Below, in pieces: positions 4,141 to 30,273 of a stretch of 36,365 nucleotides of DNA (position 1 is its first letter; each line of letters starts with the position of its first letter). A model generated the notes under the pieces. It was not told where the DNA came from and searched no databases. It saw only the letters and a program-made list of their open reading frames with translations. The DNA is from Alcaligenaceae bacterium (GTDB lineage: Bacteria > Pseudomonadota > Gammaproteobacteria > Burkholderiales > Burkholderiaceae_B). Location of the stretch: contig JAJUGH010000002.1 in NCBI GenBank assembly GCA_029268265.1, positions 1-36,365 of the forward strand. The letters are read 5' to 3'. Made by a program: the position numbers and the translations under genes.

Positions 4141-4833
4141 ATGGTCTTCGCCATGAATCCCCAAGCCTTGCTGCATCGGCATCCTGAACGCATCCATCCG
4201 GCGTTGTGGCGCGCCACCCAATTGGCGCGGCCGACCCGCCCCACCGTGGCCACCGGCTTTGCAAGCCTCGACCACGCATTACCCGGCCAGGGCTGGCCCG
4301 TGGGCCAGATCATCGAACTCATGCTCGAGCAATCAGGCTGCGGAGAAATGCAGCTCTTTCGTCACGCCCTGGCGCGGCAATACCCCGAACGCAGCATCGC
4401 ACTGGTACGCCCCCCTCATCCCCCCTGCATACAGGCCTGGGCTGCGTGGCAGCTTGCTCCGGAACGTCTGCTTTGGCTGCAACCTTCGTCCACCCCTGAT
4501 GCCCTCTGGGCCACCGAGCAGATTATCCGGCACAACGTATGCGCCGCCGTCTTTTGCTGGGCCCACCCCATTCTTCCGGCCAGCTTGCGCAAGCTCCAGC
4601 TGCTGGCTCAGCAAAGCGACACCCTGTGCATCGTCTTGCGCCCCGCTTCAGCCGCCAGCCAGGCCAGCCATGCGGCCTTGCGGCTGGCCGTCCAGCCCCG
4701 CCGCCGGGGCATGCTGCTGCACATTCTCAAGCGTCAGGGCGCGGGCATTGCGCCCCCGCTCGAGCTTCAACTGTACGCCCCTGTCCGCAAGGCGGCTAAT
4801 CATGATGTTGTGGATCTGCCTGAAATGGCCTGA
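4141..4833 (+). CDS. imuA: ImuA, translesion synthesis-associated RecA-like protein
   Basis: TGFASLDHALPGQGWPVGQIIELMLEQSGCGEMQLFRHAL; lies directly before imuB and dnaE2. An alternative start is at 4153. Confidence 0.88.
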   Translation: MVFAMNPQALLHRHPERIHPALWRATQLARPTRPTVATGFASLDHALPGQGWPVGQIIELMLEQSGCGEMQLFRHALARQYPERSIALVRPPHPPCIQAWAAWQLAPERLLWLQPSSTPDALWATEQIIRHNVCAAVFCWAHPILPASLRKLQLLAQQSDTLCIVLRPASAASQASHAALRLAVQPRRRGMLLHILKRQGAGIAPPLELQLYAPVRKAANHDVVDLPEMA

Positions 4834-6070
4834 AGGCGACTTGCAACCCCTGGCCTTGTCCATGTTGCAGTACAGCCCGCGGGTAGCCTGCTTCCGGCAC
4901 GACTCCGTGGTGCTGGAAGTCGCAGGCAGCCTGTCGCTGTTCAAAGGCGTCCGTTCACTCTGCCGGCAGGTCCTGCATACCGCTCGCCAGCTCTCGCCCA
5001 TGATACGCCTGGGCATGGCGCCTTCCGCCACAGGAGCCTGGTTGCTTGCGGGCGCCGCCGCCCCCAGGCGTGTCTTGCGTCCATCCACCCTGCAGCCATG
5101 CCTTGACCCTCTGCCAGTCACCAGCCTGCCGGAGTTTCTTCCCTACCAGCCATGGCTTGAAAACATCGGCTGCCTCACCCTGGGCAGCCTGCGCAAGCTG
5201 CCGCGGCAGGGCTTGCAACAGCGCAGCAGCCCCGTTTTGCTACATGGTCTGGACACCGCCTACGGCCGAACCTCTGAAAGCATTTCCTGGTTCGTTCCGC
5301 CCGGAACCTTTCGCCAGACCCTCGAGCCGGACTTTCACCTTCAGCAGGCCGATGCCATCCTGGCGGCAAGCCAGCCTCTGCTGCACGCGCTATGCGGCTG
5401 GCTGCACGGCCGGCAGGAAGCCCTGCATGAACTCACACTGCTGATGCACCACGAAAAGGGGCGTTCGGCCGTCGCACCCACCCCTGTGGCCTTGCGCTTC
5501 TCTGACGCCACCTGGCGAATCGAAGACTTCAATCGCCTGTTTCGGGAAAGCCTGCAACACCATCGGCTGCATAGGCGGATCGCCGCGCTGGAGCTCGTGG
5601 CGGGCACCCCGCATCCTCGCACTCCGGCCAACGACACCCTCTTCCCGGATCCGTCACGCCGAGCCCAGGATGAAAGCCGCCTGCTGGACCTGTTGTCGGC
5701 GCGCCTGGGGCAAGAGAACATCCGATGGCCCTGCCCCAATCCTCACCCCCTTCCCGAGATCGCCAATGAATGGGTTCAGGGGCCGGTCAAACCGGCCGCC
5801 AGAACCTGGCCGGCGGTGGCGAAGAGCCGCCCTTTCTGGTTGCTGCCACAGCCCAAGGCCTTGTCAGTTCATCAGGAACGGCCTGTCCATCAGGGGCAGC
5901 CTCTACGCCTGGTTCAGGGGCCGGAGCGCATTGAAACGGGTTGGTGGAGCTCCCTGGGCCATCAGCGCCGAGACTACTTCGTGGCGGAAGACGCCCGGGG
6001 TGCCCGCTATTGGATTTACCGCGAACGCGAAACGGGTGAAGGCTGGTTTCTGCACGGCCTGTTCTCCTGA
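4802..6070 (+). CDS. imuB: ImuB-like Y-family DNA polymerase homologue (apparently N-terminally shortened)
   Basis: MMLWICLKWPEGDLQPLALSMLQYSPRVACFRHDSVVLEVAGSLSLFKGVRSLC...; C-terminal SRPFWLLPQPKAL and RRDYFVAEDARGARYWIYRE...GWFLHGLF typical of ImuB; overlaps the imuA 3' end. Confidence 0.85.
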   Translation: MMLWICLKWPEGDLQPLALSMLQYSPRVACFRHDSVVLEVAGSLSLFKGVRSLCRQVLHTARQLSPMIRLGMAPSATGAWLLAGAAAPRRVLRPSTLQPCLDPLPVTSLPEFLPYQPWLENIGCLTLGSLRKLPRQGLQQRSSPVLLHGLDTAYGRTSESISWFVPPGTFRQTLEPDFHLQQADAILAASQPLLHALCGWLHGRQEALHELTLLMHHEKGRSAVAPTPVALRFSDATWRIEDFNRLFRESLQHHRLHRRIAALELVAGTPHPRTPANDTLFPDPSRRAQDESRLLDLLSARLGQENIRWPCPNPHPLPEIANEWVQGPVKPAARTWPAVAKSRPFWLLPQPKALSVHQERPVHQGQPLRLVQGPERIETGWWSSLGHQRRDYFVAEDARGARYWIYRERETGEGWFLHGLFS

Positions 6071-6110
6071 AATCCTCCATGATTCCGAGCCATCTGTCTG
6101 AGGCCATCTC

Positions 6111-9100
6111 ATGAATACGCCTTTTCCCTTTCTGAGCGCCTACGCCGAGCTGGACTGCATTTCCAACTTCACCTTCCTGACCGGGGCCTCTCACCCCGAA
6201 GAGCTGGTCGAGCGTGCTGCCAAGCTGGGCTACGAAGCTCTGGCTCTGTGTGACGACTGTTCGCTGGCCGGCGTGGTGCGCGCTCATCAGGAAGCCTTGC
6301 GCCAGAACCTGCATCTGATCATCGGCAGCCGCTTCCACTTGCAGGAAGGCATGGAAATCCTTGCCCTGGCCTGCAACACCAACGGCTACGGCAATCTGTC
6401 GGAAACCATCACGCTGGCACGCAGGCGCAGCGCAAAAGGCGAATATCGCCTGAGCCTGAACGATCTTTCTCATCCACCTGCCGGGCTGGAACATCTGCGC
6501 GGACTGCCCGATTGCCTGATCATCTTCAAGCCCGATAACGATCCTGACCCCGCGCGGCTCGATGAACACCTGCGGCGATTGCGTGAAGTCTTCCCCCGCA
6601 AGCTCTGGATAGGCGTGGCCCTGCATTACGGCCCCAGCGACTCCCGCCACCTGGCCACGCTGGAACAGGCGGGAAAGCAGCATGGCCTTGTATTGGTTGC
6701 GCTGGGCGGCGTGGAGATGCATCAGCGCTCGCGCCAACCTCTGCACGATGCCCTGACGGCGATCCGGCATGGCCGCAGCGTTCCTGAAGTGATCGAACAT
6801 CTGCATCCCAATGCAGAGCGGCACCTGCGCGGCCGGCTGCGGCTGGCCAACCTGTATCCCCCGCCCCTGCTCCAGGAGACGCTGCGCATCCGCGAGCATT
6901 GCCGCTTTTCCCTGGAACAGGCCACCCGTCTATATCGCTATCCGAAGGAGATCGTTCCCCAAGGCCTGACCCCGACACAATATCTGCGCCAGGAAACCCT
7001 GGCCGGTGCGAACCGACGCTATCCGCAAGGGATTCCTCCCTCGGTGATGAAGCAGCTGGAAACGGAGCTGTCCATCATTGCCGAGCTGGAATATGAATCC
7101 TATTTCCTTACGGTCTACGACATCGTGCGGTTCGCGCGCAGCCGCGACATCCTCTGCCAGGGCCGGGGCTCTGCCGCCAACTCGGCAGTGTGCTATTGCC
7201 TGGGAATCACCGAAGTCGACCCTCTGGATGGCAACTCCCTGTTCGCCCGTTTCATCAGCCGCGCCCGTAACGAACCTCCCGACATCGACGTGGATTTCGA
7301 ACATCAGCGGCGCGAGGAAGTCATCCAGTACATCTATGAGCGTTATGGTCGTGACCGGGCCGCCCTGGCAGCCGTGGCCATCACCTATAGGCATCGCAGC
7401 GCCGTGCGCGATGCAGGCAAGGCACTGGGCATCCCCGATGACCCCATCGAGCAGGTTGCCAAGTCGTTCCAGTACTGGAGCGGCAAAAAGGAACTGCTGG
7501 AAAAAATCAACGAACAGGAACTCGTTCTGGGCGAGCGGCAGGTACGCCTGTGGGCCGGTCTCGCGCACGCCCTGAAAGGTTTTCCCCGGCATCTATCGCA
7601 GCATCCGGGAGGCTTCGTGATCTCTCACGGCCCGCTTTCGCGGCTCGTTCCCATTGAGAACGCAGCCATGCCGGACCGCAGCGTGGTGCAATGGGACAAG
7701 GATGATCTGGACGCCATGGGCCTGCTCAAGGTCGATGTGCTGGGGCTAGGCATGCTCAGCGCGCTGCAGCGCAGCCTGAAGCTGGTGAGCAAATTGCGTG
7801 GGGAACCTTTCGGCCTGCCCGACATTCCCCTGCACGACGACCCCACTTTCGAGATGATCCGGAAGGCCGACACGATCGGCGTCTTCCAGATCGAATCCCG
7901 CGCCCAGATGAGCATGCTGCCGCGCATGAAACCGGAAAAATTCTATGATCTGGTGATCCAGGTGGCGATCGTGCGGCCCGGCCCCATCCAGGGAGGCATG
8001 GTCCATCCCTACCTGCGGCGGCGCCAGGGCAATGAAAAGGCCAAGAGTCCCTCTGTAGAACTGGAAAAAGTCCTGGCCCGCACCTTGGGCATCCCCATCT
8101 TCCAGGAACAGGCCATGCAGATCGCCATGGTCGCGGCCAATTTCACCGCCGATGAAGCCGACCAGCTAAGGCGGGCCATGGCAGCCTGGCGGCGGCGTGG
8201 CGGTGTGGATGTCTTTCGCCAGCGTCTGCTGGACGGCATGACAAGCAAGGGCTATGAAAAGGATTTTGCCGAACAGATCTTCAGCCAGCTGGAAGGCTTC
8301 GGGAGCTACGGCTTTCCCGAAAGCCATGCCGCCAGTTTCGCCAAACTCGCTTATTTCAGCGCTTGGCTCAAATGCCATGAGCCGGCTGCCTTCCTGGCTG
8401 CACTACTGAACTCCCAACCCATGGGTTTTTATGCCCCAAGCCAACTGGTGCAGGATGCGAAGCGCCATGGCGTGGAGGTCCGCCCCGCGGATGTTCAGTA
8501 CAGCGATTGGGACGCCACCCTGGAAACGGTATCCGGGTCGGGTGCAGTTCGGCTGGGGTTGGGACAGGTATCGGGGTTATCTCAACAGGCGGGCCGGCGC
8601 ATCGAAGAGGCGCGGGCGCAAGCGCCCTTCACCTGCCTGCAGGATCTCGCCGTTCGTGCCGCGCTGGACCGGCGGGACATGAACGCGCTGGCCGCCGCCA
8701 ACGCCTTGCGGAGCCTGGGAAGCGACCGACGCGCCGCGCAATGGCATTCCGCCCTGATCGCTCCACCGGGCCTGTTGCGTAGCGCCCCCATCCTCGAAGA
8801 GACCATGCCTGCGCTGCCGGGCCTGTCGGAAGGCGAAAGCATCGTGCATGACTATCGCTCCCTGGGTCTTACGCTGGGACGTCATCCCCTGGTGTTGCTA
8901 AGGCCTCAGTTGCAGGCGCGGCGCTTCGTCCCGGCTGCGCAGTTGCAGGCCGACTGGCCCGACCGCCGTCCCGCTCGCGCCTGTGGGCTCGTGACTTCGC
9001 GTCAACGGCCCGGGACGGCCAAGGGCACGATCTTCGTCACCCTGGAAGATGAATCGGGATATGTGAATGTGATTGTCCGCCCCGGGTTGGCTGAAAAGCA

Positions 9101-9248
9101 GCATGCCGAACTGATTTCCGCGGGACTTCTGGGCGTCTATGGCACCTGGCAGCGTCATGAAGCGGTTTGCCACCTGATCGCGGCACGCCTGGTCGATCTC
9201 ACTCCGCTGCTGGGCTCGCTAAGGACGCCCAGCCGTGACTTCCACTAA
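6111..9248 (+). CDS. dnaE2: Error-prone DNA polymerase DnaE2
   Basis: 1045 aa; PHP N-terminus AYAELDCISNFTFLTGASHPEEL; catalytic PPDIDVDFEHQRREEVIQYIYERYG; linked to imuAB. Confidence 0.95.
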   Translation: MNTPFPFLSAYAELDCISNFTFLTGASHPEELVERAAKLGYEALALCDDCSLAGVVRAHQEALRQNLHLIIGSRFHLQEGMEILALACNTNGYGNLSETITLARRRSAKGEYRLSLNDLSHPPAGLEHLRGLPDCLIIFKPDNDPDPARLDEHLRRLREVFPRKLWIGVALHYGPSDSRHLATLEQAGKQHGLVLVALGGVEMHQRSRQPLHDALTAIRHGRSVPEVIEHLHPNAERHLRGRLRLANLYPPPLLQETLRIREHCRFSLEQATRLYRYPKEIVPQGLTPTQYLRQETLAGANRRYPQGIPPSVMKQLETELSIIAELEYESYFLTVYDIVRFARSRDILCQGRGSAANSAVCYCLGITEVDPLDGNSLFARFISRARNEPPDIDVDFEHQRREEVIQYIYERYGRDRAALAAVAITYRHRSAVRDAGKALGIPDDPIEQVAKSFQYWSGKKELLEKINEQELVLGERQVRLWAGLAHALKGFPRHLSQHPGGFVISHGPLSRLVPIENAAMPDRSVVQWDKDDLDAMGLLKVDVLGLGMLSALQRSLKLVSKLRGEPFGLPDIPLHDDPTFEMIRKADTIGVFQIESRAQMSMLPRMKPEKFYDLVIQVAIVRPGPIQGGMVHPYLRRRQGNEKAKSPSVELEKVLARTLGIPIFQEQAMQIAMVAANFTADEADQLRRAMAAWRRRGGVDVFRQRLLDGMTSKGYEKDFAEQIFSQLEGFGSYGFPESHAASFAKLAYFSAWLKCHEPAAFLAALLNSQPMGFYAPSQLVQDAKRHGVEVRPADVQYSDWDATLETVSGSGAVRLGLGQVSGLSQQAGRRIEEARAQAPFTCLQDLAVRAALDRRDMNALAAANALRSLGSDRRAAQWHSALIAPPGLLRSAPILEETMPALPGLSEGESIVHDYRSLGLTLGRHPLVLLRPQLQARRFVPAAQLQADWPDRRPARACGLVTSRQRPGTAKGTIFVTLEDESGYVNVIVRPGLAEKQHAELISAGLLGVYGTWQRHEAVCHLIAARLVDLTPLLGSLRTPSRDFH

Positions 9249-13088: not shown

Positions 13089-13166
<78 letters not shown>

Positions 13167-13175
13167 ACAATATTC

Positions 13176-13211
13176 AAGGGCTTACAGATTTCGGTCTGTA
13201 AGCCCTTTTCC
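13176..13211 (+). terminator. Rho-independent terminator after tRNA-Pro
   Basis: AAGGGCTTACAGA / TCTGTAAGCCCTT perfect 13-bp stem (13176-13188, 13195-13207) ending in a short T tract. Confidence 0.88.
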
Positions 13212-13619
13212 GTTTTGGCGCGCCGCTCGGCAAACAGCTGACGGTTATCTCCGCCTTCACACTCTCGTTTTCCCAGCCGGGGAAAACCCTCTCGGCCACC
13301 AGGGGCTACGCCGGTCGGCTGGACCGCTCCGCGCCGCAGGCCGAACTGCCACCACCGCGCAACGCCGCGCCATGCTTACATTTCGTTGATCTTACGGTTT
13401 GTTTCCGGAGGGCCGATGGTTGCCGCCGGACGGCCATCAGCTACGCCAAGCAGCGTAGAACAACGGCCCAAATCCCCCCAATGGCGGGAGTCTAGGGGTA
13501 AGCCGAACGACGCATGTTTCCACTCCCACGTTTCCCTAAGATACATCGCATACAAGTGATTTCCGTCTTGCGACGGGATGTACAAGAAAAAGCGAAACAC
13601 TTTCCGGAGGGGAAACTCC

Positions 13620-14147
13620 ATGGAAGCAGGTGTGCACAGAGTTCGGCTTGCCGATCCGCACAACCCTGATTGTCGGCGACTTCGGTTGTCATCATATCGC
13701 GCTGTCGCCTTGGCGGCGCTGCTGATGTTCATGCTCGCTGGGCCCGCGATGGCGGACGATGCGCAATCGCCTGCTGCGGACCCGAATGGCGCGCCCGAAA
13801 GCGTAGACCGCATCTTCCAGGACCCGCTCGGGGGCGTGGTGGTGAATCGCACCGTCACGGTATTGGGAAAGGATTTCTATCGCTACTTCGCGTCGTACTG
13901 GCGCGAGCATAAGGAAGCCTCGAAGTACACGATCTCGATCTATGAGCGCCCCACCGCCCGGTTTGGAAGTGAGGTGTGGGTGCTGTATCGGCAGCAGCGG
14001 ATGTTCCATATCTTCCTGCCGCCGGCCCGTCAGGCCACGCGAGAGATCAGTCAGATTGCCGTACAGCACGTGATCGAAAACATATCCCAGCGCGAGCTGG
14101 AACGCATGACCACAAGGAACCCTGACCTTGGACCCGAGGAACTATGA
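13620..14147 (+). CDS. csgE: Curli assembly protein CsgE
   Basis: DPLGGVVVNRTVTVLGKDFYRYFASYWREH...YTISIYERPTARFGSEVWVLYRQQRMFHIFLPPAR; GGAGGGG Shine-Dalgarno upstream of ATG 13620; TM/signal peptide ending PAMADD. Confidence 0.9.
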   Translation: MEAGVHRVRLADPHNPDCRRLRLSSYRAVALAALLMFMLAGPAMADDAQSPAADPNGAPESVDRIFQDPLGGVVVNRTVTVLGKDFYRYFASYWREHKEASKYTISIYERPTARFGSEVWVLYRQQRMFHIFLPPARQATREISQIAVQHVIENISQRELERMTTRNPDLGPEEL

Positions 14148-14602
14148 AAAGAGGAGCAACCATGATATCCCGATCAAGTAGCCTTCGCGCGGCACTGCTG
14201 ATTACAGCGGCGTCGTTGACCGGGCAGGCGGTGGCGACAGAACTGATCTACTACCCGCGCAATCCATCTTTCGGGGGCAACCCGGCATATGGGCACGTGC
14301 TGCTCAATTCCGCTCTCGCTACCAAGACGCATAAAGACCCGGGCCTGGATGTGGACACGGGGATAGAGGAACTGTCGCCGCTCGAGCAGTTCAATGATGC
14401 CCTGGAACGTCAGGTGATCAACCGGCTCACCACTGCCGCGACCGCCAAGATCATCGGCCCCAACGGGAACCTGATTCCCGGCACGCTGGAAACCGACAAC
14501 TTCGTAATCAACATTGCAGACATGGGCAACGGCATGCTCAACGTGACCACCACGGACAAGCTGACCGGTGCCACCACTTCGTTCCTGGTGAGCAGCCAAT
14601 GA
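14144..14602 (+). CDS. csgF: Curli assembly protein CsgF
   Basis: ELIYYPRNPSFGGNPAYGHVLLNSALATKTHKDP matches the conserved CsgF N-terminus; alternative start MISRSS at 14162. Confidence 0.92.
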   Translation: MKRGATMISRSSSLRAALLITAASLTGQAVATELIYYPRNPSFGGNPAYGHVLLNSALATKTHKDPGLDVDTGIEELSPLEQFNDALERQVINRLTTAATAKIIGPNGNLIPGTLETDNFVINIADMGNGMLNVTTTDKLTGATTSFLVSSQ

Positions 14603-15567
14603 TGACCCGCAACAATAATAATAAGCGCGGAAACTTCCGCGCCGTAGCAAGAATGGCAGTCGTGCTCGCCACGACGGGTGTAGTCGGCGCCTGCGCGGTC
14701 CCGCCCAGCGACCCCGTGCAATTGACCACGGCGGCACAGCTGACACCGCCCTCTCCCTCTACCCGCGATCTCCAGCAGCTACCGCCGCCACGCGGCCGCG
14801 TAGTGGCTGCGGTGTACGGATTCCGTGACCAGACCGGCCAGTACAAGCCTTCACCTGAGAGCTCGTTTTCGACCTCGGTTACGCAGGGCGCTGCATCGAT
14901 GCTGATCAAGGCGCTCAAGGACTCCGGGTGGTACACGCCCGTGGAGCGGGAAAGCCTGCAGGAATTGCTGACCGAACGGCGCATCGTCAGAGCCATGGAG
15001 TTTCCCGGCGAACAGAATGCAGGCACCGACGTCCCGCCGCTGCTGCCTGCCTCGATTCTGCTTGACGGCGGCATCATCGCCTACGAAAGCAATCTGCGTA
15101 CGGGTGGCATTGGGGCACGGTTCCTCGGCGTTGGGGCCTCCACCCAATATCGCATGGACCAGGTGACCATCAACCTGCGCAGCATCGATATTCGTACAGG
15201 CGCGATTCTGCATTCGGTGTCGACCACCAAAACCATCTTTTCGTACGAAGTCACTCCCAACGTCTACAAGTTCGTGAACTACACCGACCTGCTGGAATTC
15301 GAGGCCGGCGTTACGAGCAACGAGCCTGCACAGCTCAGCGTGAAGGAGGCGATCGAGGCCGCAGTGATCCATCTGACCATCCAGGGCATCAAGGACGGGA
15401 ACTGGCGCCTGCGCGATCAAGCCGACTGGAACTCACCAATCATTCAGCGCTATCTGGCTGCAGCTCAGAGCGATGTTTACAACGTCGTCCAGGGCTCCAC
15501 CGCAGCCGTGGCGAACACCGTATCGACTCCCGATTCGGGAGAGGGCAAGCCGCCTTCATCCTTGTAA
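14599..15567 (+). CDS. csgG: Curli secretion lipoprotein CsgG
   Basis: Lipobox VVGAC; VAAVYGFRDQTGQYKPSPESSFSTSVTQGAASMLIKALKDSGWYTPVERESLQELLTERRIVRA; GGIIAYESNLRTGGIGARFLGVGASTQYRMDQVTINLR. Confidence 0.95.
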   Translation: MMTRNNNNKRGNFRAVARMAVVLATTGVVGACAVPPSDPVQLTTAAQLTPPSPSTRDLQQLPPPRGRVVAAVYGFRDQTGQYKPSPESSFSTSVTQGAASMLIKALKDSGWYTPVERESLQELLTERRIVRAMEFPGEQNAGTDVPPLLPASILLDGGIIAYESNLRTGGIGARFLGVGASTQYRMDQVTINLRSIDIRTGAILHSVSTTKTIFSYEVTPNVYKFVNYTDLLEFEAGVTSNEPAQLSVKEAIEAAVIHLTIQGIKDGNWRLRDQADWNSPIIQRYLAAAQSDVYNVVQGSTAAVANTVSTPDSGEGKPPSSL

Positions 15568-15685
15568 GGCGCGCCCACGCATGTCGGCGTAAGCCGGCTG
15601 GCATCGCATGGATGAAGGGGCCACCCATGCGGCGCACTTTGTTCGGCCCTTCGAGAAGTGCAACGAATTGAACAGGAGTTATGAC

Positions 15686-16411
15686 ATGAATGTGAAATTA
15701 TCTGCGTTGGCGCTTGGACTCACGCTCGCTTACGGTATGACGGCTGCAATGGCCGATGAAGCGGTGATTGATCAATCCGGCGGTCTCAACGACGCCGTCA
15801 TTGAGCAATACAACAACGATGGATCCCAAGTGCGCGCAAGCATCAGCACTTCGGGCTGGAACAACGACCACTCCATCGAGCAGACTCGCAGCAGCCGCGC
15901 GTGGGCCGATATCAACTCACCGGGCAGCTTCAACACCGCAACGGTGTTGCAGAGCAACCTGGACTACGGTGGCACTGAAATCTACCAAGGTGCCAGCGGC
16001 AGCACGGCCTCTGTAGACCAGGGTGCGGATTCCGGCTGGGGATATGGGGGGCGTTCCCGCGATGGGAGCAGCCAGTGGGCCTTTATCTACCAAAATTGGG
16101 GGTATGGGCACGACGCTTCGGTTGTTCAGCGCGGCGACAAAGTCGAGGCGACCATCGTTCAAACCGGTATTGGAAATTCTGCGGACGTATCGCAGCGCGG
16201 TACCGGTCGTAGCTTCAACATCGCCGATGTGACTCAGAGCGGTATTGGCCAGACGGCAGCCGTGACTCAAAACGGCCATGGCCTGACGGCTACCGTGACG
16301 CAAAGCGGCATGGGCCACTACGCGATGGTGAACATGCGCGGCAGCTCGCATACTGCCACGGTCACGCAGAGCGGCTTCGCCAACAGCGCGCGCGTGATGC
16401 AGCGTAACTGA
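15686..16411 (+). CDS. Curlin-like amyloid subunit (CsgA/CsgB family)
   Basis: Signal peptide MNVKLSALALGLTLAYGMTAAMADEA; many Q-x-G-x-x-N/T-x-A-x-V repeats; AGGAG RBS before ATG 15686; directly after csgG. Confidence 0.88.
   Translation: MNVKLSALALGLTLAYGMTAAMADEAVIDQSGGLNDAVIEQYNNDGSQVRASISTSGWNNDHSIEQTRSSRAWADINSPGSFNTATVLQSNLDYGGTEIYQGASGSTASVDQGADSGWGYGGRSRDGSSQWAFIYQNWGYGHDASVVQRGDKVEATIVQTGIGNSADVSQRGTGRSFNIADVTQSGIGQTAAVTQNGHGLTATVTQSGMGHYAMVNMRGSSHTATVTQSGFANSARVMQRN
16229..16393 (+). repeat. Five tandem 33-nt (11-aa) curlin units
   Basis: VTQSGIGQTAA / VTQNGHGLTAT / VTQSGMGHYAM / VNMRGSSHTAT / VTQSGFANSAR, each 33 nt in phase. Confidence 0.85.
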
Positions 16412-16422
16412 TGTAGCAGGAT

Positions 16423-16450
16423 GGAAATGCGGGTCCACGCCCGCATTTCC
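16423..16450 (+). other. Perfect 11-bp stem-loop between the curlin and csgH-like genes
   Basis: GGAAATGCGGG (16423-16433) / CCCGCATTTCC (16440-16450), 6-nt loop TCCACG; not followed by a T tract. Confidence 0.75.
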
Positions 16451-16516
16451 AATCGTGTCCTAATGATTCCCAAATGTAAAAAGTATGACGTTACAAAATA
16501 GAACAGCGAGGCGGAA

Positions 16517-16822
16517 ATGCTAGCGGACACTGACCTTCAGGTGTGGCTTGACGCCGCTCAAGAGCGGCCGGCGGTGATCATACCGTACGTCCGAAGTGGG
16601 CGCGACGACTCGCTGGAATATTCGTTGCAAGTACTGCGAAAAAGTGCCTCAGGCACGTCGCGGATCTCGCAGCGTGGCTCGCTGGACGTCAAGGCTGACG
16701 TGCCCAAGGCGCTGTCTCGCCTGTCGTTGAGCGGCACTCCTTCTACCGAGTGCCGTATCGAGCTCACACTGACGGCCAATGGCCACCATGACCGTCACTA
16801 TGTGTTCGAGTGCCCCTCTTGA
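16517..16822 (+). CDS. CsgC/CsgH-like curli chaperone, no signal peptide visible
   Basis: 101 aa, beta-rich; PAVIIPYVRSGRDDSLEYSLQVLRKSASGTSRISQRGSLDVKA resembles CsgH-type proteins; located after the curlin gene. Confidence 0.62.
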   Translation: MLADTDLQVWLDAAQERPAVIIPYVRSGRDDSLEYSLQVLRKSASGTSRISQRGSLDVKADVPKALSRLSLSGTPSTECRIELTLTANGHHDRHYVFECPS

Positions 16823-17105
16823 TTCAAACATTCCGTCAGGGAAACCGTTGTGGCTCGCGCTAGCGGTTACTACTGCCGATCACGCCCTTGTGCGAGCTCG
16901 CCCGGTTGCATACGATACCGGTCCCGAAGTCTGCATGATGGCTGTAACTAACATAGAAAAGCGCATCACTTTACCGAAGTGTTTTGTGCTCCCCGCCAGG
17001 GCCTGCGCCCCTGGGCGACCGTGACCATGCTGCCCACGGTAACGCGTCCGACTCTTTGGTGGACGGGGCGCGCAGATACGATGTCCAACTTAGGAACAAA
17101 CAAAA

Positions 17106-17939
17106 ATGCGTACCGTTGTCATCGTTGAACCTCATCCCCTCTTCCGGCTGGGCCTGCGACAGTTGCTGAGTGATGTTCTGCCCGAAGCATCACTGGAAGG
17201 GTACGACTACTCAGCATTGGGCTCCGCAGAGGGCTCTTCTACTGAAAAGTGCGACCTCCTGCTTCTCTCGGTAGTACCGGGCAAGCGGGTGTCCGAACTG
17301 GCGGGCAGCGCCGCAAAGCGCTTCTCCCCCAGCAAGATACTCCTGCTGGCCGATTCCGAAGCGCTGTCGGAATCCATGGGTGAACTCCCCGCATGTGTAG
17401 CGGGCGCGGTCCCTAAAGAAGCGCCGCCTGAGATTCTGCAGACTTCGGTAAAACTCGTTCTCGCGGGGGGCAGCTGCTTCCCCGCTAGCGCGCAGCGCTC
17501 CGAACCCGAAGTGGCAACGCCCCACCCCGCCGCGCCTGCTGCAGTAGAGGTTTCGCCCCCCAGCTATGAGCCGGTGAAATGGATGGGAGCAGGCAAGCCC
17601 GCCGCGGTGGCAGCGGCCGCAGCTGACGCCGATTCCACTGAATGTGAATTCAGTACGCCTATGCGTCCGGGTTCGGCAGCGCACCGTGAAAGCCAGCTAC
17701 TGGGACTTACGCCTCGTCAGTACGAAGTGCTGGTACTGCTCGCACGCGGCTATCCCATGAAAAAGGTGGGCCGGGCCCTGAACATTTCCGTGGCGACGGC
17801 AAAGGCGCATACCGAGACGCTTTACCAGCGACTGGATGTGCACAACCGTAATGCGGCGGTGTATGCGGCCGTGTCGCGCGGCGCCACGCTGGGCTGGGCC
17901 AACGTGGCGGGCCAATCACAGGCGGCTTCCAACCCTTGA
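17106..17939 (+). CDS. LuxR/NarL-family regulator with degenerate receiver domain (functional CsgD analogue candidate)
   Basis: N-terminal VVIVEPHPLFRLGLRQLL receiver-like; C-terminal LTPRQYEVLVLLARGYPMKKVGRALNISVATAKAHTETLYQRLDVHNRNAAV LuxR HTH. Confidence 0.9.
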   Translation: MRTVVIVEPHPLFRLGLRQLLSDVLPEASLEGYDYSALGSAEGSSTEKCDLLLLSVVPGKRVSELAGSAAKRFSPSKILLLADSEALSESMGELPACVAGAVPKEAPPEILQTSVKLVLAGGSCFPASAQRSEPEVATPHPAAPAAVEVSPPSYEPVKWMGAGKPAAVAAAAADADSTECEFSTPMRPGSAAHRESQLLGLTPRQYEVLVLLARGYPMKKVGRALNISVATAKAHTETLYQRLDVHNRNAAVYAAVSRGATLGWANVAGQSQAASNP

Positions 17940-18452: not shown

Positions 18453-19010
18453 TCAGAGCATACCCATCTGCAGGCGCGCCGATTCGCTCATCATTTCACG
18501 ACTCCATGGTGGATCCCATACCAGATCCACTGCGACCTCGTCGACCCCATGGATGTTCAGCAATTTGCTGCGCGCTTCGTCGGCAATCATCGTGCCCATT
18601 CCGCATCCCGGAGCGGTAAGGGTCATCCGCATCTCGATGCGAAAGCGTTCCTCGCCAACCGGAATCACATCGCAACCATAGACCAGACCCAGGTTCACGA
18701 TATCAACCGGGATCTCCGGATCGAAGCAGGTCGACAGGACTTCCCATGCCTGCTCCTTTACATATTCCTCGGTAACGGGACCCTCGGGGATATGCTGCTC
18801 GACCTCGATCACATCAAGGCCCAGCGCATCCGCATCCTGACCTTCCACTCGATACAGGTTCCCCTGCACCATGACGGTAATGCTGCTGCCCAATTGCTGA
18901 GTGATGACTGCGGTGCAGCCCTTCTCGATCGTGACAGGCGAACCATAAGGGATGGTGACCGCCGGACAGTCTCGCAGGACTTCGATTTCTTCGCTTTTCA
19001 AATGCATCAT
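18453..19010 (-). CDS. sufT: Fe-S cluster assembly protein SufT (long form, DUF59/MIP18)
   Basis: DPEIPVDIVNLGLVYGCDVIPVGEERFRIEMRMTLTAPGCGMGTMIADEARSKL; next to suf genes. Confidence 0.92.
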   Translation of the reverse strand: MMHLKSEEIEVLRDCPAVTIPYGSPVTIEKGCTAVITQQLGSSITVMVQGNLYRVEGQDADALGLDVIEVEQHIPEGPVTEEYVKEQAWEVLSTCFDPEIPVDIVNLGLVYGCDVIPVGEERFRIEMRMTLTAPGCGMGTMIADEARSKLLNIHGVDEVAVDLVWDPPWSREMMSESARLQMGML

Positions 19011-19016
19011 GTCGCG

Positions 19017-19466
19017 CTACTCGGTTTTTGCGGTTTCCCGGGCCTCGGTAATGGCATTGTGCAAGGTATGCCAGGCCAGGGTGGCACACTTGACCCGCGC
19101 GGGGAACTCTCGTACCCCCGACAGCACTTCCAGCTTACCCATGTCACGATCCGGGTGGGCTTCGGTCAGCATGGCGTGCATGTCCTCGAACAGGCTCTCC
19201 ACCTCTTCGACAGGTCTGCCCTTGACCGCTTCGGTCATGAGGGAGGCCGACGCCGTTGAAATGGCGCAGCCATGGCCGATAAAGCTCACCTCTTCGACCT
19301 TTCCGTCGCTTACCCGGGCGTATACCGTGAGCTGGTCGCCGCACAGGGGATTATGGCCATCGGCCTGATGCGTCGCCTCCTCCATGGCATGGAAGTTTCG
19401 CGGGCGACGGTTGTGGTCAAAAATCACTTCCTGATAGAGCTCGCGGAGATCGCCAGATCCAATCAT
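19017..19466 (-). CDS. sufU: SufU-type Fe-S scaffold/sulfur transfer protein
   Basis: LRELYQEVIFDHNRRPRNFHAMEEATHQADGHNPLCGDQLTVYARV...GHGCAISTASASLMTEAVKG...VKCATLAWHTL. Confidence 0.92.
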   Translation of the reverse strand: MIGSGDLRELYQEVIFDHNRRPRNFHAMEEATHQADGHNPLCGDQLTVYARVSDGKVEEVSFIGHGCAISTASASLMTEAVKGRPVEEVESLFEDMHAMLTEAHPDRDMGKLEVLSGVREFPARVKCATLAWHTLHNAITEARETAKTE

Positions 19467-20725
19467 GCGGTTTCCTCCAGTCCGAACAGGCGGCGTGCCT
19501 TGCGCAGGCCGGCTGCCAGGGCGTCGACATCCTGCTTGCCGTTGTAGATAGCGAACGAGGCACGAGCCGTACCGGGCAGGCCGAAGCGTGTCATCAACGG
19601 CATCGCGCAATGGTGTCCTGCGCGTATGGCCACGCCTTCCATGTCGAGAATGGTGCCCAGGTCGTGCGGATGTATGCCGTCCATAACGAACGACACGATC
19701 CCGGCGCGTTCAGCGGCCTGCCCGATAAAGCGCAAGCCGGGGATTTCGGCCAGCACCGAAGTGGCATACGCCACAAGCTCCGCTTCGTGAGCCGCTATGA
19801 CGTCGAGACCGATTCCCTGCACGTATGCAATGGCTTCCGCCATGGCGATCGCTCCGGCGATGTTGGGGGTGCCGGCTTCAAATTTCTGGGGCGTCTCGGC
19901 GTAGGTGGCGCGCTCGAAACTCACCGTATGGATCATGTCGCCGCCACCCTGCCACGGCGGCATGGCGTCAAGAAACTCTTTGCGGCCATAGAGGGCACCG
20001 ATACCCGTGGGCCCATAAAGCTTGTGGCCGGAAAACGCGTAGAAGTCGCAACCCAAGGCCTGGACGTCCACGATCTGGTGAGCAACCGCCTGGGCGCCGT
20101 CCACCAGCACGACTGCGCCGACTTCGTGTGCCTGCCGAATGATGTCGGCCACCGGATTCACGGTGCCCAGCGCATTCGACACGTGGCAGACCCCTACGAA
20201 CTTCGTGCGATCGCTTAGCATCGAAGCAAAGGCCTGCATGTCCAGTTCGCCGTTGTCAGTAACGGGGACTACGCGAATACGGGCACCCGTCTGTTCGGCC
20301 ACCATCTGCCACGGAACGATATTGGAGTGATGCTCCATGCCACTCAGGAGGATCTCATCGCCTTCCTTAAGATTGCGGCGTCCCCAGGTGGCGGCCACCA
20401 GATTGATGGCTTCGGTGGTGCCACGGGTAAAGACAATCTCTTCCACGCGCGCAGCGTTCAGAAATGCCCGTACCTTTTCGCGGCTGCGATCATAAAGATC
20501 AGTGCTGTGCTGCGACAGCCAGTGCACGCCACGGTGGATGTTCGCGTTGGAGTCCTGGTAGAAGCGTGCTTCAGCCTCGATTACCGCTTGCGGCTTCTGC
20601 GTGGTCGCGCCGTTGTCGAGATAGACCAGGCGGCGTCCGTGGACCGGGCGTGCCAGGATCGGGAAGTCGGCCGCGCGTGCAGCGACTTCCCCGCGTGCGT
20701 CGTTTCCGAGCGCGACGGCGTTCAT
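19463..20725 (-). CDS. sufS: Cysteine desulfurase SufS
   Basis: YLDNGATTQKPQAVIEAEARFYQDSNANIHRGVHWLSQ; PLP Lys in FSGHKLYGPTGIGALYG; RAGHHCAMPLM active Cys. Confidence 0.95.
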   Translation of the reverse strand: MNAVALGNDARGEVAARAADFPILARPVHGRRLVYLDNGATTQKPQAVIEAEARFYQDSNANIHRGVHWLSQHSTDLYDRSREKVRAFLNAARVEEIVFTRGTTEAINLVAATWGRRNLKEGDEILLSGMEHHSNIVPWQMVAEQTGARIRVVPVTDNGELDMQAFASMLSDRTKFVGVCHVSNALGTVNPVADIIRQAHEVGAVVLVDGAQAVAHQIVDVQALGCDFYAFSGHKLYGPTGIGALYGRKEFLDAMPPWQGGGDMIHTVSFERATYAETPQKFEAGTPNIAGAIAMAEAIAYVQGIGLDVIAAHEAELVAYATSVLAEIPGLRFIGQAAERAGIVSFVMDGIHPHDLGTILDMEGVAIRAGHHCAMPLMTRFGLPGTARASFAIYNGKQDVDALAAGLRKARRLFGLEETA

Positions 20726-22032
20726 GCAAGCTCTCCCAACATGTTGGCACCGGGCATCAGTGCGCGCACGGCGTGACTGGCACGGCGGCGCACTGGCTCG
20801 GGCTCGATGCGCGCGAGACTCGCCAGCACGAAGGCATACACGAGAACGTTGCGCGCGTGAGTGCGATCGAGGCCACGTGCCATGAGGTAGAAGAGACTGT
20901 CTTCGCTCAACTGCCCCACCGTTGCGCCGTGGGTGCATCGCACATCTTCAGCATAGATTTCGAGCTCCGGACGCGAGTCGGAACGCGCCAGCTTCGAGAG
21001 CAGCAGACTGTCATTGCGCTGGATGGCGTCGGTGCCGTCGGCGCCGGGAGCCACCAGGATGCGGCCGCGAAATACACCGCGCCCGCGGTCGGCCAGAATG
21101 CCTCGGTAATGCTCATTGCTGACGCAGTTGGGCTGGGCGTGACCGATAAGGGTGTGGTGGTCGACGTGCCGTTGGCCATCGGCGAAATAAACGCCGTTAA
21201 GCAGGCTTTCAGCGCGTTGGCCGCCAAAATGCGTGGCGATGTCGTGGCGTGCAATGCGGGCGCCCAACGACACCGAGTGCGAGGCGAAATACGATTTTCC
21301 CTCTTGCTCGGCTTCGACACTGCCCAGGTGAAACGCCTGGTTGGCTTCCTGCTGCAGCCGGGTATGGCTCAGACGCGCATCCGATGCCACCTGCACGCGC
21401 GTCACCGTATTGGTGAGCGTGACGTTGCCATCGCGCCCCACATAATGCTCGACGATATTCCCCTGCGCGCCGGATTCAGCCACGTACAGATTGCGCGGAA
21501 ACGATGCCGCGCGTTCTCCACTGGAGACGAACACCACGTGCACCGTTTCTTCCAGCACCACGCCGCGCGCCAGATGCACGAACGCACCATCGCAGGTCAG
21601 TGCCAGATTCAGCGCGGAGATGCTGCTGCCGTCGGTTTCGCTGCCAAACGCTTCCTGCACCAGGTCGGCCTCGTGGGCCAGCGCGTCAGCCACGGTGCCG
21701 AGACGGACGCCGGCGGCCAGCGTGCCGAGACGGCTCAGCCCGGGCTCATAGCGGCCATCCACGAACACCAGCCAATGCCCGGTGTCGTCGCCGATCAGCG
21801 CCCGGACCGTCTCCGACACATCTTGCGGACGTGCCTGAGTATCGAAGGATGCTTGCTCGAGAGGAGCCAGCGAAGTATGGCGCCAGTCTTCCAGTCGGGT
21901 GGTGGGCCAGCCTTCGGCAGCAAAGCGTTCGATTGCCCGCTTGCGCATTGCATCGAGCCACGGGAGCCCCGCACCCGGCAACTGCCCCTGGCGAGCCGAG
22001 AAATCGGAAATCCAGGTATCGACCGCCGTCAT
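20722..22032 (-). CDS. sufD: Fe-S cluster assembly protein SufD
   Basis: SufBD core: HVDHHTLIGHAQPNCVSNEHYRGILADRGRGVFRGRILVAPGADGTDAIQRNDSLLLS; CTHGATVGQLSEDSLFYLMARGL. Confidence 0.95.
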   Translation of the reverse strand: MTAVDTWISDFSARQGQLPGAGLPWLDAMRKRAIERFAAEGWPTTRLEDWRHTSLAPLEQASFDTQARPQDVSETVRALIGDDTGHWLVFVDGRYEPGLSRLGTLAAGVRLGTVADALAHEADLVQEAFGSETDGSSISALNLALTCDGAFVHLARGVVLEETVHVVFVSSGERAASFPRNLYVAESGAQGNIVEHYVGRDGNVTLTNTVTRVQVASDARLSHTRLQQEANQAFHLGSVEAEQEGKSYFASHSVSLGARIARHDIATHFGGQRAESLLNGVYFADGQRHVDHHTLIGHAQPNCVSNEHYRGILADRGRGVFRGRILVAPGADGTDAIQRNDSLLLSKLARSDSRPELEIYAEDVRCTHGATVGQLSEDSLFYLMARGLDRTHARNVLVYAFVLASLARIEPEPVRRRASHAVRALMPGANMLGELA

Positions 22033-22799
22033 GCGCGCGCTCCTTGCTGCTCGGCCTCCAGCTCCTTGACCCAGCCATAGCCGCGCTTTTCAAGCTCGTG
22101 CGCGAGCGAGCTGTCGCCGGAACGCACGATGCGGCCGCCGGCCAGCACGTGCACGTAGTCAGGAACGATGTAGTCCAGCAGACGTTGATAGTGGGTGATG
22201 ACGATGAGTGCGCGGTCAGGCGAACGCATGCGGTTCACGCCGTCTGCAACCACGCGAAGGGCGTCGATGTCGAGGCCCGAATCGGTCTCGTCCAGGATCG
22301 CCAGCTTCGGTTCGAGCAGCGACATCTGGAGGACCTCGTTGCGCTTCTTCTCGCCGCCGGAGAACCCTTCGTTTACGGAACGGTAGAGAAACTCTTCCTT
22401 CATGCCCACCGTCTTCATTTCCTCTTTCACGCGCTTGAGGAAATCCATAGCGTCCAGTTCCGGTAGGCCCTGATGACGCCGCACGGCATTGACGGAAGCC
22501 TTGAGGAAGTAGGCATTGGACACGCCCGGAATTTCGATGGGGTACTGGAAGGCCAGGAAGATGCCGGCGCGGGCGCGTTCCTCGACGGGCATTTCCAGAA
22601 GATCCTGACCCATGAACTCGACTTCGCCGCTATCCACCGTGTACTCTTCGCGGCCGGCCAGCACCTGCGACAGCGTGCTCTTGCCCGAACCGTTCGGACC
22701 CATGATGGCGTGGACCTCGCCCGGGTTCACCGTGAGCGACAGCCCGTTGAGTATCCGCTTGTCTTCGATGGAAGCGTGCAAATCCTTGATGTTCAGCAT
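22029..22799 (-). CDS. sufC: Fe-S cluster assembly ATPase SufC
   Basis: MLNIKDLHASIEDKRILNGLSLTVNPGEVHAIMGPNGSGKSTLSQVLAG; FSGGEKKRNEVLQM; LAILDETDSGLDIDAL. Confidence 0.97.
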   Translation of the reverse strand: MLNIKDLHASIEDKRILNGLSLTVNPGEVHAIMGPNGSGKSTLSQVLAGREEYTVDSGEVEFMGQDLLEMPVEERARAGIFLAFQYPIEIPGVSNAYFLKASVNAVRRHQGLPELDAMDFLKRVKEEMKTVGMKEEFLYRSVNEGFSGGEKKRNEVLQMSLLEPKLAILDETDSGLDIDALRVVADGVNRMRSPDRALIVITHYQRLLDYIVPDYVHVLAGGRIVRSGDSSLAHELEKRGYGWVKELEAEQQGARA

Positions 22800-22813
22800 G
22801 ATGTGTTTTCTCC

Positions 22814-24265
22814 TTAACCTACGCTGCCTTCAAGGCTGACACCGAGCAGATTCTGCGCTTCAACCGCGAACTCCATGGGCAATTCCTTGAAAACTTCCTT
22901 GCAGAAGCCGTTGACGATCATCGACACGGCGTCTTCGGCCGTCAGGCCGCGCTGCATGGCATAAAACAATTGATCTTCGGCAATACGCGAAGCCGTGGCT
23001 TCGTGTTCGACCTTGGCGGTGGGATTCTGGACTTCCATGACCGGGAAGGTATGTGCCGCGCACTTCTTGCCGATCAGCAGCGAGTCGCACTGCGTGAAGT
23101 TGCGTGCGTTCTCTGCCTTGGGGGTCATACGCACGAGACCACGATAGGCGTTGCTGCCCTGCCCGGCCGAAATCCCCTTCGAGATGATGGTGCTGCGCGT
23201 ATTGCGGCCGATGTGGATCATCTTGGTACCGGTATCGGCTTGCTGACGATGGTTGCTGAGCGCCACCGAGTAGAACTCGCCGGTGGAATCGTCGCCACGC
23301 AGGACCACGCTGGGGTATTTCCAGGTAATGGCCGAACCGGTTTCCACCTGGGTCCAGGAAATGTGCGAACGGGCTCCGCGACACTCGCCGCGCTTCGTCA
23401 CGAAGTTGTAGATGCCGCCCACGCCGTCCTTGTCGCCGGGATACCAGTTTTGGACGGTGGAGTACTTCACCTTGGCGTCTTCCAGCGCGACGATCTCGAC
23501 CACGGCTGCGTGCAGCTGGTTTTCGTCGCGCATGGGCGCCGTACAGCCTTCCAGGTAGCTGACGTAAGACCCCTCGGCCGCGATGATCAGCGTACGTTCG
23601 AACTGCCCCGTGTTGGAAGCGTTGATCCGGAAGTACGTGGACAGCTCCATGGGGCACCGCACGCCCTTCGGGATATACACGAAGGAGCCGTCCGAAAAGA
23701 CGGCCGAGTTCAGGGCCGCATAGAAGTTGTCACCCGGAGGCACGACGGAGCCCAGGTATTCCTTGATGAGTTCAGGATATTGCTGCGCGGCTTCGGAGAA
23801 CGAACAGAAAATGACGCCGACCTCTTCCAGTTGCTTGCGGAATGTGGTGGCCACCGAGACCGAGTCGAAAACGGCGTCCACAGCGACCCCGGCCAGACGC
23901 GCGCGCTCATGCAGCGGCACACCCAGCTTTTCGTAGGTGCGCAGCAGCTCGGGATCGACTTCGTCGAGACTCTTGGGGCCATCAGCCTTGCTCTTCGGTG
24001 CCGAGTAGTAGCTGATTTCCTGGAAGTCCACTGGCGGAAAATGCACGTGCGCCCACTCAGGCGGCGTCATTTCCAGCCACTTGCGGTAAGCGGCAAGACG
24101 CCACTCCAGCAGGAATTCCGGCTCTTTCTTGATCGCCGAAAGCTTGCGTATCGTTTCTTCGGACAGCCCCGGCGGCAGCGAGACGGATTCAATATCCGTC
24201 ACGAACCCAGCCGAGTATTCTCGGTCCAGGAAGGTGTCAATTGGGTCGGTTACGCTACTGCTCAT
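22814..24265 (-). CDS. sufB: Fe-S cluster assembly protein SufB
   Basis: [85 protein letters not shown]. Confidence 0.97.
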
Positions 24266-24762
24266 TCAGAGAAACTCCATGTCGAAGGGCATGCCGCCGT
24301 TTTGTTTGGTGGCGCGCTATGGGCATTGCTGCGGCCGGGTATGAATTGGATCGTGGCGGTGGGATTCACCATGTCGGCAACCGACACCTGCTCGAGCGTC
24401 TTGCGCACGGCGGCATTGATGCGGTGCCAGTTGCTGCGAATATTGCAGGCGGCCTCGACGCTGCATGCACCCGGTGTGGCGGTACATTCGGTCAGCCCGA
24501 AAGGCTGGTCATCGAGTGCGTCTATAATGTCGGCGATACTGATGTCTTCAGGCGCCCGACCCAGGGCATAACCGCCCCGCGCTCCCCGGGTGCTTTTGAC
24601 GATCTCGCGCTGCGCCAGCGACTTCAATACCTTGCTGACCACCGGTTGCCCGAGGCCCAGGGTTGATGCAAGATCAGTAGCGCTGAACACACGCTGCGGA
24701 TCTGACGCCATGTGCGTCAGCAGCAGTGTTCCGTAGTCGATGATCTTGCTGACGCGCAGCAT
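24262..24762 (-). CDS. Rrf2-family SUF system Fe-S regulator
   Basis: [68 protein letters not shown]; Cys cluster [15 protein letters not shown]; overlaps sufB start. Upstream start at 24780 possible. Confidence 0.93.
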
Positions 24763-24797
24763 ATTCGCCGGTTCTCCCAAAGCCTGTTGTTACCAAA

Positions 24798-28657: not shown

Positions 28658-29146
28658 ATGGAAGCTGTGCCGTTCAATCACGCCGCCGCCCTTGCGGCCT
28701 GCGCACGGGGCGATGAGGCCGCATTTCACCGACTGTTCGACCATGAAGCCCCGCGGATGCTCGCGTTATGCCAGCGACTCGTTCCGACCGACGCCGAAAG
28801 CGTGCTGCATGACGCCTTCGCATTGATTTGGCGTAATGCCGATCAGTACGACGAAACCATGGGCCGTGCTCGAGCCTGGATTTACTGCGTCCTGCGACAT
28901 GTCGCCCGACATCATCGGCTGCGGCAAAATGTGGTTCCACCGGTCTTGGCTCCCTCATTGCCCGGACCCCCGCAGACGGGCGGCAAGCTGGCTGCCCTGG
29001 CGGCCAATGAGCCACTCGCCTACCAGGTGATCGCACACGGATATCTGGACGGCGCAGATTACCGGCGGGTGTCCAGCTGGCTAAGCCGTCGCGAATCCGA
29101 CCTTCGGGATGCGATTCGAGATGCATTCATCGAGGTCTCGGCATGA
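28658..29146 (+). CDS. ECF-type RNA polymerase sigma factor, divergent region 4
   Basis: ACARGDEAAFHRLFDHEAPRMLALCQRLVPTDAESVLHDAFALIWRNADQYDETMGRARAWIYCVLRHVARHHRL resembles sigma region 2 of SigK-like ECFs. Confidence 0.8.
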   Translation: MEAVPFNHAAALAACARGDEAAFHRLFDHEAPRMLALCQRLVPTDAESVLHDAFALIWRNADQYDETMGRARAWIYCVLRHVARHHRLRQNVVPPVLAPSLPGPPQTGGKLAALAANEPLAYQVIAHGYLDGADYRRVSSWLSRRESDLRDAIRDAFIEVSA

Positions 29147-30273
29147 GCTCGGAGCCGCGTGAAGAGACCCTTGCCAAGGACGTGCGCGTTGCCGAATACA
29201 TCTGCGGCCTGCTTTCTCCGGCTGAAAGCGCCCAAGTGCACGCACTGCTGGCTCGTGATGATGAGGCGCTGGCGATCGGGCTGCAATGGGAAGCCGAACT
29301 GCTGTCTCTGGTTGACGCGCTTCCTCCCGTATCGCCCCCGGCAAGCCTGCGCGAGCGCCTGCAGCGCAGCTTGAATATCGGTCCGCCACAAGCCCCCATC
29401 CAGACACAGCTTCTGCGCCGCCGTTCCCAGGAGCACGACTCGGTTGCCATACCTGCGCAGACGCTGAGCGAGCGAGCCGCCGTTGTTAATCCCGCCCCTC
29501 CAGCGGCGGAACCAACCCGCCCTACTGTCCATTCTTTTACGGCTTCGCCGACGCGCGCTAGCCCCACCGGGGTCGATGGCGCGGCGGAACACGCGTCGGA
29601 ACCCGCAGCAGAAGAAGCGCGCCCGCGCGCAAAGACCGCCGGGCCGGTAAGCAGTGGATCAAACGGCTCACCCGGCCTGGCATCGTCCGCACATTCCCGC
29701 GGCCCGTCATCCGACCACGAACGGGCGCTGCTGCGCAAGCTGTGGCTGTGGCGGCTGATCGCATTGGGTGCCGCGGCCGCGGCCATCGTCGGGTTCATGT
29801 TGCCCGGCGAGCCCCCTCCTCCACCGGTTCAGATCGTGAAGGTGGCCCCGACACGGGCGGCCATTCTGATGGCGCCCGGCACCAGCAGTACGCCGGGCTG
29901 GACCGCCACGCTCGACGTCGATGGCAATCTGATGATGCAACCGCTGGTGCACACCGAGGTACCGCTGGGTTCGCAAGTGTTGCTCTGGACTCGAAGTGCC
30001 CGTGTACCCGAGCCTCGCCTTCTCGGCAAGATCGACCCCAATCGGCCCGTGCAGGTACCGGCGGCGACTCTGGGCGCGCTGGCCGAAGATCAGCTCTTCG
30101 AAATCACGTTGGAAAAAGACGAGGATGCGGCGGAAGGTGTGCCCAACGGGCCGATTCTCTTCATCGGGCAGATGACCGTCTTCGCTGCGGGTGCGGCGAC
30201 TATGCCCGATACCGCGTCCGGCGCATCGGATGCCTCTGGGGCATCGGCCGGTACGATCACTACACAGCCGTGA
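29143..30273 (+). CDS. Anti-sigma factor, RskA-like, single-pass membrane protein
   Basis: VAEYICGLLSPAESAQVHALLARDDEALAIGLQWEAEL; TM LWLWRLIALGAAAAAIVGFML; C-terminal RskA-like domain; overlaps the sigma gene by ATGA. Confidence 0.85.
   Translation: MSSEPREETLAKDVRVAEYICGLLSPAESAQVHALLARDDEALAIGLQWEAELLSLVDALPPVSPPASLRERLQRSLNIGPPQAPIQTQLLRRRSQEHDSVAIPAQTLSERAAVVNPAPPAAEPTRPTVHSFTASPTRASPTGVDGAAEHASEPAAEEARPRAKTAGPVSSGSNGSPGLASSAHSRGPSSDHERALLRKLWLWRLIALGAAAAAIVGFMLPGEPPPPPVQIVKVAPTRAAILMAPGTSSTPGWTATLDVDGNLMMQPLVHTEVPLGSQVLLWTRSARVPEPRLLGKIDPNRPVQVPAATLGALAEDQLFEITLEKDEDAAEGVPNGPILFIGQMTVFAAGAATMPDTASGASDASGASAGTITTQP

Follow-up and report, generated by a model that had tools for sequence, protein, structure and literature searches.

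The DNA analysed here is a stretch of 36,365 nucleotides, hereafter called the window, from an Alcaligenaceae bacterium (contig JAJUGH010000002.1, positions 1 to 36,365), whose assembly (GCA_029268265.1) is a metagenome-assembled genome that is 70% complete. Between positions 13620 and 17939, the window contains six genes on the + strand that were identified with Pfam and NCBIfam models, namely csgE, csgF, csgG, a curlin gene, csgH and a gene for a LuxR-type regulator, here named R, and the co-directional order reported in an earlier, sequence-only reading of this DNA is thereby borne out. The start codons given below are the likely ones, picked by eye from Shine-Dalgarno (SD) sites. In our view the locus is, with a probability of roughly 0.7, a complete and ordinary one-subunit curli (type VIII secretion) operon that is standard for its lineage; its less usual features are a CsgH that lacks a signal peptide, the regulator R with a promoter-like element upstream of csgE, and a hairpin between the curlin gene and csgH.

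13620-14147, + strand: csgE (PF10627, E = 9.8e-30), with a signal peptide and the SD sequence GGAGG just 5' of it
14162-14602, + strand: csgF (PF10614, E = 9.7e-29), with a signal peptide
14599-15567, + strand: csgG (PF03783, E = 9.2e-68, above cut-off), outer-membrane secretion lipoprotein with lipobox VVGAC
15686-16411, + strand: curlin subunit gene, csgA/B type (PF07012, E = 4.6e-20)
16517-16822, + strand: csgH, CsgC/CsgH-type curli chaperone without a signal peptide (NF041112 and fold model)
17106-17939, + strand: R, LuxR/NarL-type regulator (PF00196, LuxR helix-turn-helix, E = 8.7e-12)

The curli locus and its counterparts in the family

CsgE and CsgF both score above their Pfam cut-offs. 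An alternative in-frame ATG for csgE at 13578 is the less likely start, and for csgF, whose reading frame is open from 14144, the ATG at 14162 is favoured by the SD sequence AGAGGAG. The curlin reaches 71.7 bits against a PF07012 cut-off of 20.7, with five stretches matched; its signal peptide ends in AMA, and the mature part of about 218 residues holds some nine to ten degenerate repeats.

CsgE is present in 56 of the 269 genomes of the family, belonging to 22 of its 43 genera; 40 of the CsgE-bearing loci were read directly and 20 further stretches were added. The sequence-only reading had regarded the arrangement as a special rearrangement, a view that it would have given up, as far as gene order is concerned, if the same order were standard across the family. 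This is what the synteny comparison based on profile searches revealed: E-F-G-(one or two curlins)-H-R is the prevailing order, with R not always adjacent, and it recurs in Yanghanlia, Pollutimonas, Pusillimonas, Parapusillimonas, Paralcaligenes and Candidimonas. Outside the family, the Pseudomonas loci (L139-L155) have another order, E-F-curlin-G-curlin-H, and CsgH is leaderless there too. In one family locus (L056, genome G178), csgE, csgF and csgG each occupy two reading frames, which probably reflects a broken operon or assembly errors.

The window shares csgE, csgF, csgG, a curlin-repeat subunit and a chaperone of the CsgC/CsgH fold with the csgDEFG/csgBAC genes of Escherichia coli, but differs from them in being a single co-directional cluster with one curlin, a leaderless CsgH-type chaperone and no ortholog of CsgD. 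Single curli operons from which csgC and csgD are absent have already been reported outside the gammaproteobacteria (PMC3521004, PMC4838910), and the Burkholderiales loci of the first of these studies resemble the window in both absences. Two betaproteobacterial systems were found in that survey, which reported csgH from alphaproteobacteria alone (PMC3521004); betaproteobacterial CsgH subfamilies were noted later, their missing leader was not (PMC4838910).

The curlin slot contains one gene in 29 loci and two in 15. The curlin of the window scores 89.8 bits against the CsgB model and 66.3 bits against the CsgA model, both below cut-off, and no second curlin of CsgB type was found at the locus or in the 70% complete assembly, where the PF07012 matches fall solely in this gene. 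Placed on the CsgG tree, several deep forks of which are unresolved, the fewest changes in curlin number is one, so that the one-curlin loci would trace back to about one ancient change, the loss of a CsgB-like partner. In the complete relatives G126, G213 and G160, all listed curlin matches lie inside the one locus. In two genomes of the window's own genus, G235 and G236, further curlin loci are found elsewhere: at contig edges these genomes carry a second curli locus (L074 and L075), in which there are a 427-residue curlin with a csgG fragment and R, and a csgH with a curlin fragment. These seem to represent another, larger type of curlin. The earlier claim of one curlin and no second one thus stands for the locus and for the complete relatives, but is unsafe for the genome as a whole, in which a single curlin is plausible rather than proven.

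These comparisons also bear on the proposal that the window encodes a minimal, self-contained form of curli found in this organism alone, having its own nucleation and control. The single curlin, the absence of a CsgD ortholog and the recurrence of the one-curlin state in complete relatives are in line with it, but the same arrangement is the family standard, related loci hold two curlins in the same slot, and congeners have further curlin loci. Given the family-wide synteny, the idea of such a variant is mostly unsupported, and we consider it highly improbable. That nucleation and control may differ from those in E. coli stays plausible, in that the CsgB-like partner seems to have been lost about once in the clade, and that R and the promoter element are not CsgD-like.

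A CsgH-type chaperone without a signal peptide

The assignment of CsgH is supported by the NCBIfam model NF041112 (53.7 bits, cut-off 35) and by matches to the Pfam CsgC/CsgH domain (E = 1.1e-6 and 1.4e-5); the protein passed PF10610 (CsgC; 29.1 bits against 25) and narrowly missed PF21112 (CsgH; 25.4 bits against 27). All 43 family members match both CsgH and CsgC models, NF041112 included. An AlphaFold2 model (pLDDT 83) has the seven-strand CsgC/CsgH fold, and its only clear matches in the PDB, the top two, are 2N59 (CsgH; Foldseek E = 5.4e-7, TM 0.73) and 2XSK (CsgC). Cysteines C79 and C99, invariant in 43 of 43 members, are far apart in sequence and do not form a CxC motif, as stipulated in the definition of CsgH (PMC4838910). 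The protein thus shares with the CsgH of Rhodopseudomonas palustris (2N59) its fold, a family score above cut-off and distant non-CxC cysteines. It differs from it in that both cysteines are C-terminal, whereas those of 2N59 join the N- and C-terminal strands, and in that it lacks a signal peptide, which most of the alphaproteobacterial relatives examined possess.

A signal peptide is absent from CsgH in all 43 family loci examined. In the alignment of these proteins, the start is fixed seven to eight codons before the first-strand motif QVWL, and an SD sequence precedes it in 34 of 43 loci, compared with 9% of control stretches. In 14 loci, including the window, an in-frame stop lies 1-14 codons 5' of the start, so that a leader could hardly be accommodated, if at all; the stop in the window is five codons upstream of the start at 16517, which excludes a signal peptide there. 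A frameshift or a wrongly chosen start was considered as the cause of the missing leader and rejected because of these upstream stops and the family-fixed start. Consistent with a true absence, the best hydrophobic 10-mer of CsgH that could be used as a leader has a median Kyte-Doolittle value of 0.64 and a maximum of 1.52 (42 loci), against medians of 2.46 for CsgE, 2.25 for CsgF and 2.14 for curlin in the same loci; it should be noted that CsgG (median 0.8) is a poor control in this measure.

A class-wide profile search for CsgH returned almost nothing beyond the family, and the breadth of the leaderless state was therefore taken from CsgG-anchored loci. Leaderless CsgH proteins also occur in Herbaspirillum and Noviherbaspirillum (Oxalobacteraceae) and in thirteen loci of fluorescent Pseudomonas, while the CsgH start of Trinickia (L135) is uncertain. 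A leader is present in four of five CsgH proteins of the alphaproteobacterial type (so labelled because they match the alpha-type CsgH model and show same-phylum kinship), in two gammaproteobacterial proteins and in one protein from a betaproteobacterium (L13); that of E. coli CsgC is very short and hydrophobic. On a poorly resolved tree, at least four changes in the leader state are required. In the open-licence papers that we searched, we found no mention of a leaderless CsgC or CsgH.

CsgC and CsgH serve as the textbook case of chaperones that prevent intracellular assembly of a functional amyloid; in the published model, both are periplasmic. The R. palustris CsgH was expressed from residue 10, a construct chosen by comparison with CsgC (PMC4838910), and it may therefore be by analogy that CsgH itself was placed in the periplasm. 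On sequence and predicted fold, the missing leader lowers the claim of periplasmic action, not that of membership in the CsgH family. The simplest reading would be a cytoplasmic CsgH acting on pre-curlin: contrary to CsgC, which is held to work in the periplasm, the leaderless CsgH would remain in the cytoplasm and stop pre-curlin from nucleating ahead of Sec export. The curlin would next be exported via Sec, held by CsgE, passed out through CsgG and captured by CsgF; where a second subunit is lacking, it may self-nucleate or be assisted by CsgF. E. coli DnaK has been reported to hold pre-CsgA in the cytoplasm (PMC6123696), and a cytoplasmic holding job of this kind therefore exists.

Alternatively, CsgH might reach the periplasm independently of a Sec signal peptide and act there like CsgC. 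Its two invariant cysteines would fit this; CsgC and CsgH proteins of known structure carry disulphides and have been described as periplasmic (PMC5135000), and the hydrophobic leader of E. coli CsgC is itself very short. The lack of an N-terminal hydrophobic stretch in 43 of 43 family members and in more than 15 proteins outside the family argues against export, and no Tat motif was noticed among the CsgH N-termini, which were read by eye. No Sec-independent export route is known to us for proteins of this kind, and we regard this alternative as unlikely, although less so than the other alternatives concerning CsgH.

The isoelectric points of CsgH and curlin were also compared, the difference between CsgC and curlin having been reported as more than 2 units. 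The gap has a median of about 1 and is positive in 27 of 42 loci, so that an electrostatic match of the kind proposed for CsgC is only weakly seen.

The gap between the curlin gene and csgH, mostly about 100 nucleotides in length, contains a strong hairpin whose sequence varies between species and which is present in most relatives:

16421-16451, + strand: intergenic hairpin GGAAATGCGGG-loop-CCCGCATTTCC, a strong fold (z = -3.6) with no T run

The folding energy of this gap lies below z = -2 relative to shuffled sequences in 33 of 43 loci; among control stretches, this holds for 5 of 43 that follow csgH and 2 of 41 that follow csgG. A role as intrinsic terminator is unsupported in the window because no T run follows the hairpin. 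It may stabilise or trim the curlin mRNA at its 3' end, which would yield curlin in excess of CsgH.

Regulator R and the element upstream of csgE

The family alignment shows that R consists of a degenerate receiver domain, a long Ala/Pro-rich linker and a near-invariant helix-turn-helix (HTH). When R is aligned to NarL over the receiver and HTH, the phospho-acceptor D59 is replaced by Ser and the acidic pair by Glu-Pro, while the Lys is kept; a residue other than Asp is seen at the phospho-acceptor position across the family. By these residues R is a pseudo-receiver protein, predicted not to be controllable by phosphorylation at the usual aspartate. The earlier statement that the locus has no canonical CsgD was confirmed, as R reaches 25.1 bits against a cut-off of 250 for the CsgD model NF007505. 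Both CsgD and R have a degenerate receiver and a LuxR-type HTH and are linked to curli genes, but R is nearer to NarL-type regulators and has the long linker. R is also not a curli-only gene, a possibility that was dismissed on account of its homologs in many curli-negative genomes.

Besides this, there are genomes in which csg genes are missing beside a kept R; flank comparison identified G129, G204 and G212. In G204, a genome of the congeneric group (L076, 8764-9240), the promoter-like element described below, a signal-peptide remnant and a degenerate curlin-like scrap lie upstream of an intact R, and csgE, csgF, csgG and csgH are gone, which indicates that the operon was lost there.

The region upstream of csgE has the following features, the distance of 454 nucleotides between the end of the tRNA gene at 13166 and the csgE start at 13620 agreeing with the roughly 450 given earlier:

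13090-13166, + strand: tRNA-Pro (ggg), found with ARAGORN, the upstream neighbour of the csg genes
13176-13207: terminator-like hairpin after the tRNA-Pro gene
13511-13547, + strand: promoter-like element and candidate activator site, with CGCATGTT at 13511-13518 and the -10-like TAAGAT at 13537-13542

Unbiased counts of 8-mer words upstream of csgE exceeded those in shuffled sequences and yielded a profile composed of CGCATGTT, 16 nucleotides and then C-C/T-TA-A/T-G/C-AT, corresponding to the pattern CGCATGTT-N18-TA(A/T)(G/C)AT. In 32 of 46 csgE upstream stretches its score exceeds the 99% level of the shuffled sequences, an optimistic count since the profile was trained on the same stretches. 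When 61 stretches were scanned on both strands, nearly all strong matches lay before csgE; in genome G203 (L084, 8558-8594), the element also precedes a curlin gene that stands alone, far away from the csg operon. In the window's assembly the exact pattern occurs once, before csgE, and a reversed control pattern does not occur. The shorter pattern CATGT-N18-20-TAWSAT was rejected as a genome-wide regulon marker, being present in all 50 genomes, curli-negative ones included. No sigma-70 consensus promoters were found above chance.

Among the fully visible loci, the element is present in 28 of the 31 in which R is adjacent and in none of the 10 in which it is not (Fisher p = 2.6e-7). R may act like CsgD and turn on the operon at the CGCATGTT element. 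The element could also be bound by another regulator or be the signature of a sigma factor, and be unrelated to R: it sits in the place of a -35 box, a C precedes its -10 hexamer, as is often the case in RpoS-type promoters, and few independent events underlie its association with R. Its absence from 10 of 10 loci lacking an adjacent R speaks for a connection with R, and we consider the unrelated-site explanation a substantial possibility that falls somewhat short of even odds.

CsgH and R might also be functionally connected: instead of acting as a holdase, the leaderless CsgH would then serve as a cytosolic sensor, which is titrated by unexported curlin and signals to R or to the operon. R lies directly downstream of csgH in most family loci, and its receiver lacks the usual phosphorylation site. 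Leaderless CsgH proteins are, however, also encoded in the Oxalobacteraceae and Pseudomonas loci, where R was not found in the retrieved stretches, and a sensor role seems quite improbable.

Elsewhere in the window, open reading frames recognised by reading alone suggest an ImuA-ImuB-DnaE2-like mutasome cassette at 4141-9248 (a recA-like small protein, a Y-family polymerase-like frame and a DnaE-type polymerase of 1045 residues) and, likewise by reading, a SUF-type iron-sulphur cluster operon on the - strand at 18453-24780, with an Rrf2-type regulator at 24262-24780. At 28658-30273 on the + strand, an ECF sigma factor-like frame precedes the gene of a probable anti-sigma factor whose middle part is long and rich in Ala, Pro and Ser.

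A possible cytoplasmic control of curli in betaproteobacteria and Pseudomonas

Taken together, we tentatively propose, giving it a little less than an even chance, that in betaproteobacteria and fluorescent Pseudomonas the CsgC/CsgH-type inhibitor would be a cytosolic guard of curlin before Sec export, a dedicated counterpart of DnaK (PMC6123696), and that R and CGCATGTT would form a curli switch of non-CsgD origin. Several findings weigh against such roles of CsgH and R. The two cysteines, invariant in 43 of 43 CsgH proteins, are easier to explain in an oxidising compartment. Three genera-level lineages (L042, L051 and L057) have a one-curlin operon with R in which csgH is undetectable, and CsgH would thus be dispensable there. 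The association between the element and R is confounded by descent, as only two independent pairs lie on supported branches; both agree, and significance is unreachable with so few. Finally, R is also found in genomes without curli, and must therefore either act on further targets or be a relic.

Based on sequence comparison alone, the leaderless CsgH would be worth a second look first, the pair of R and CGCATGTT second and the hairpin third. If a large and consistent clade lacks the leader, either amyloid formation is controlled in the cytoplasm of these bacteria or CsgH leaves it by a novel export route. The R/CGCATGTT pair provides a candidate regulator and operator for control of curli by a protein other than CsgD, and the family supplies natural one-curlin systems that may be useful for studying the nucleation of curli without CsgB.

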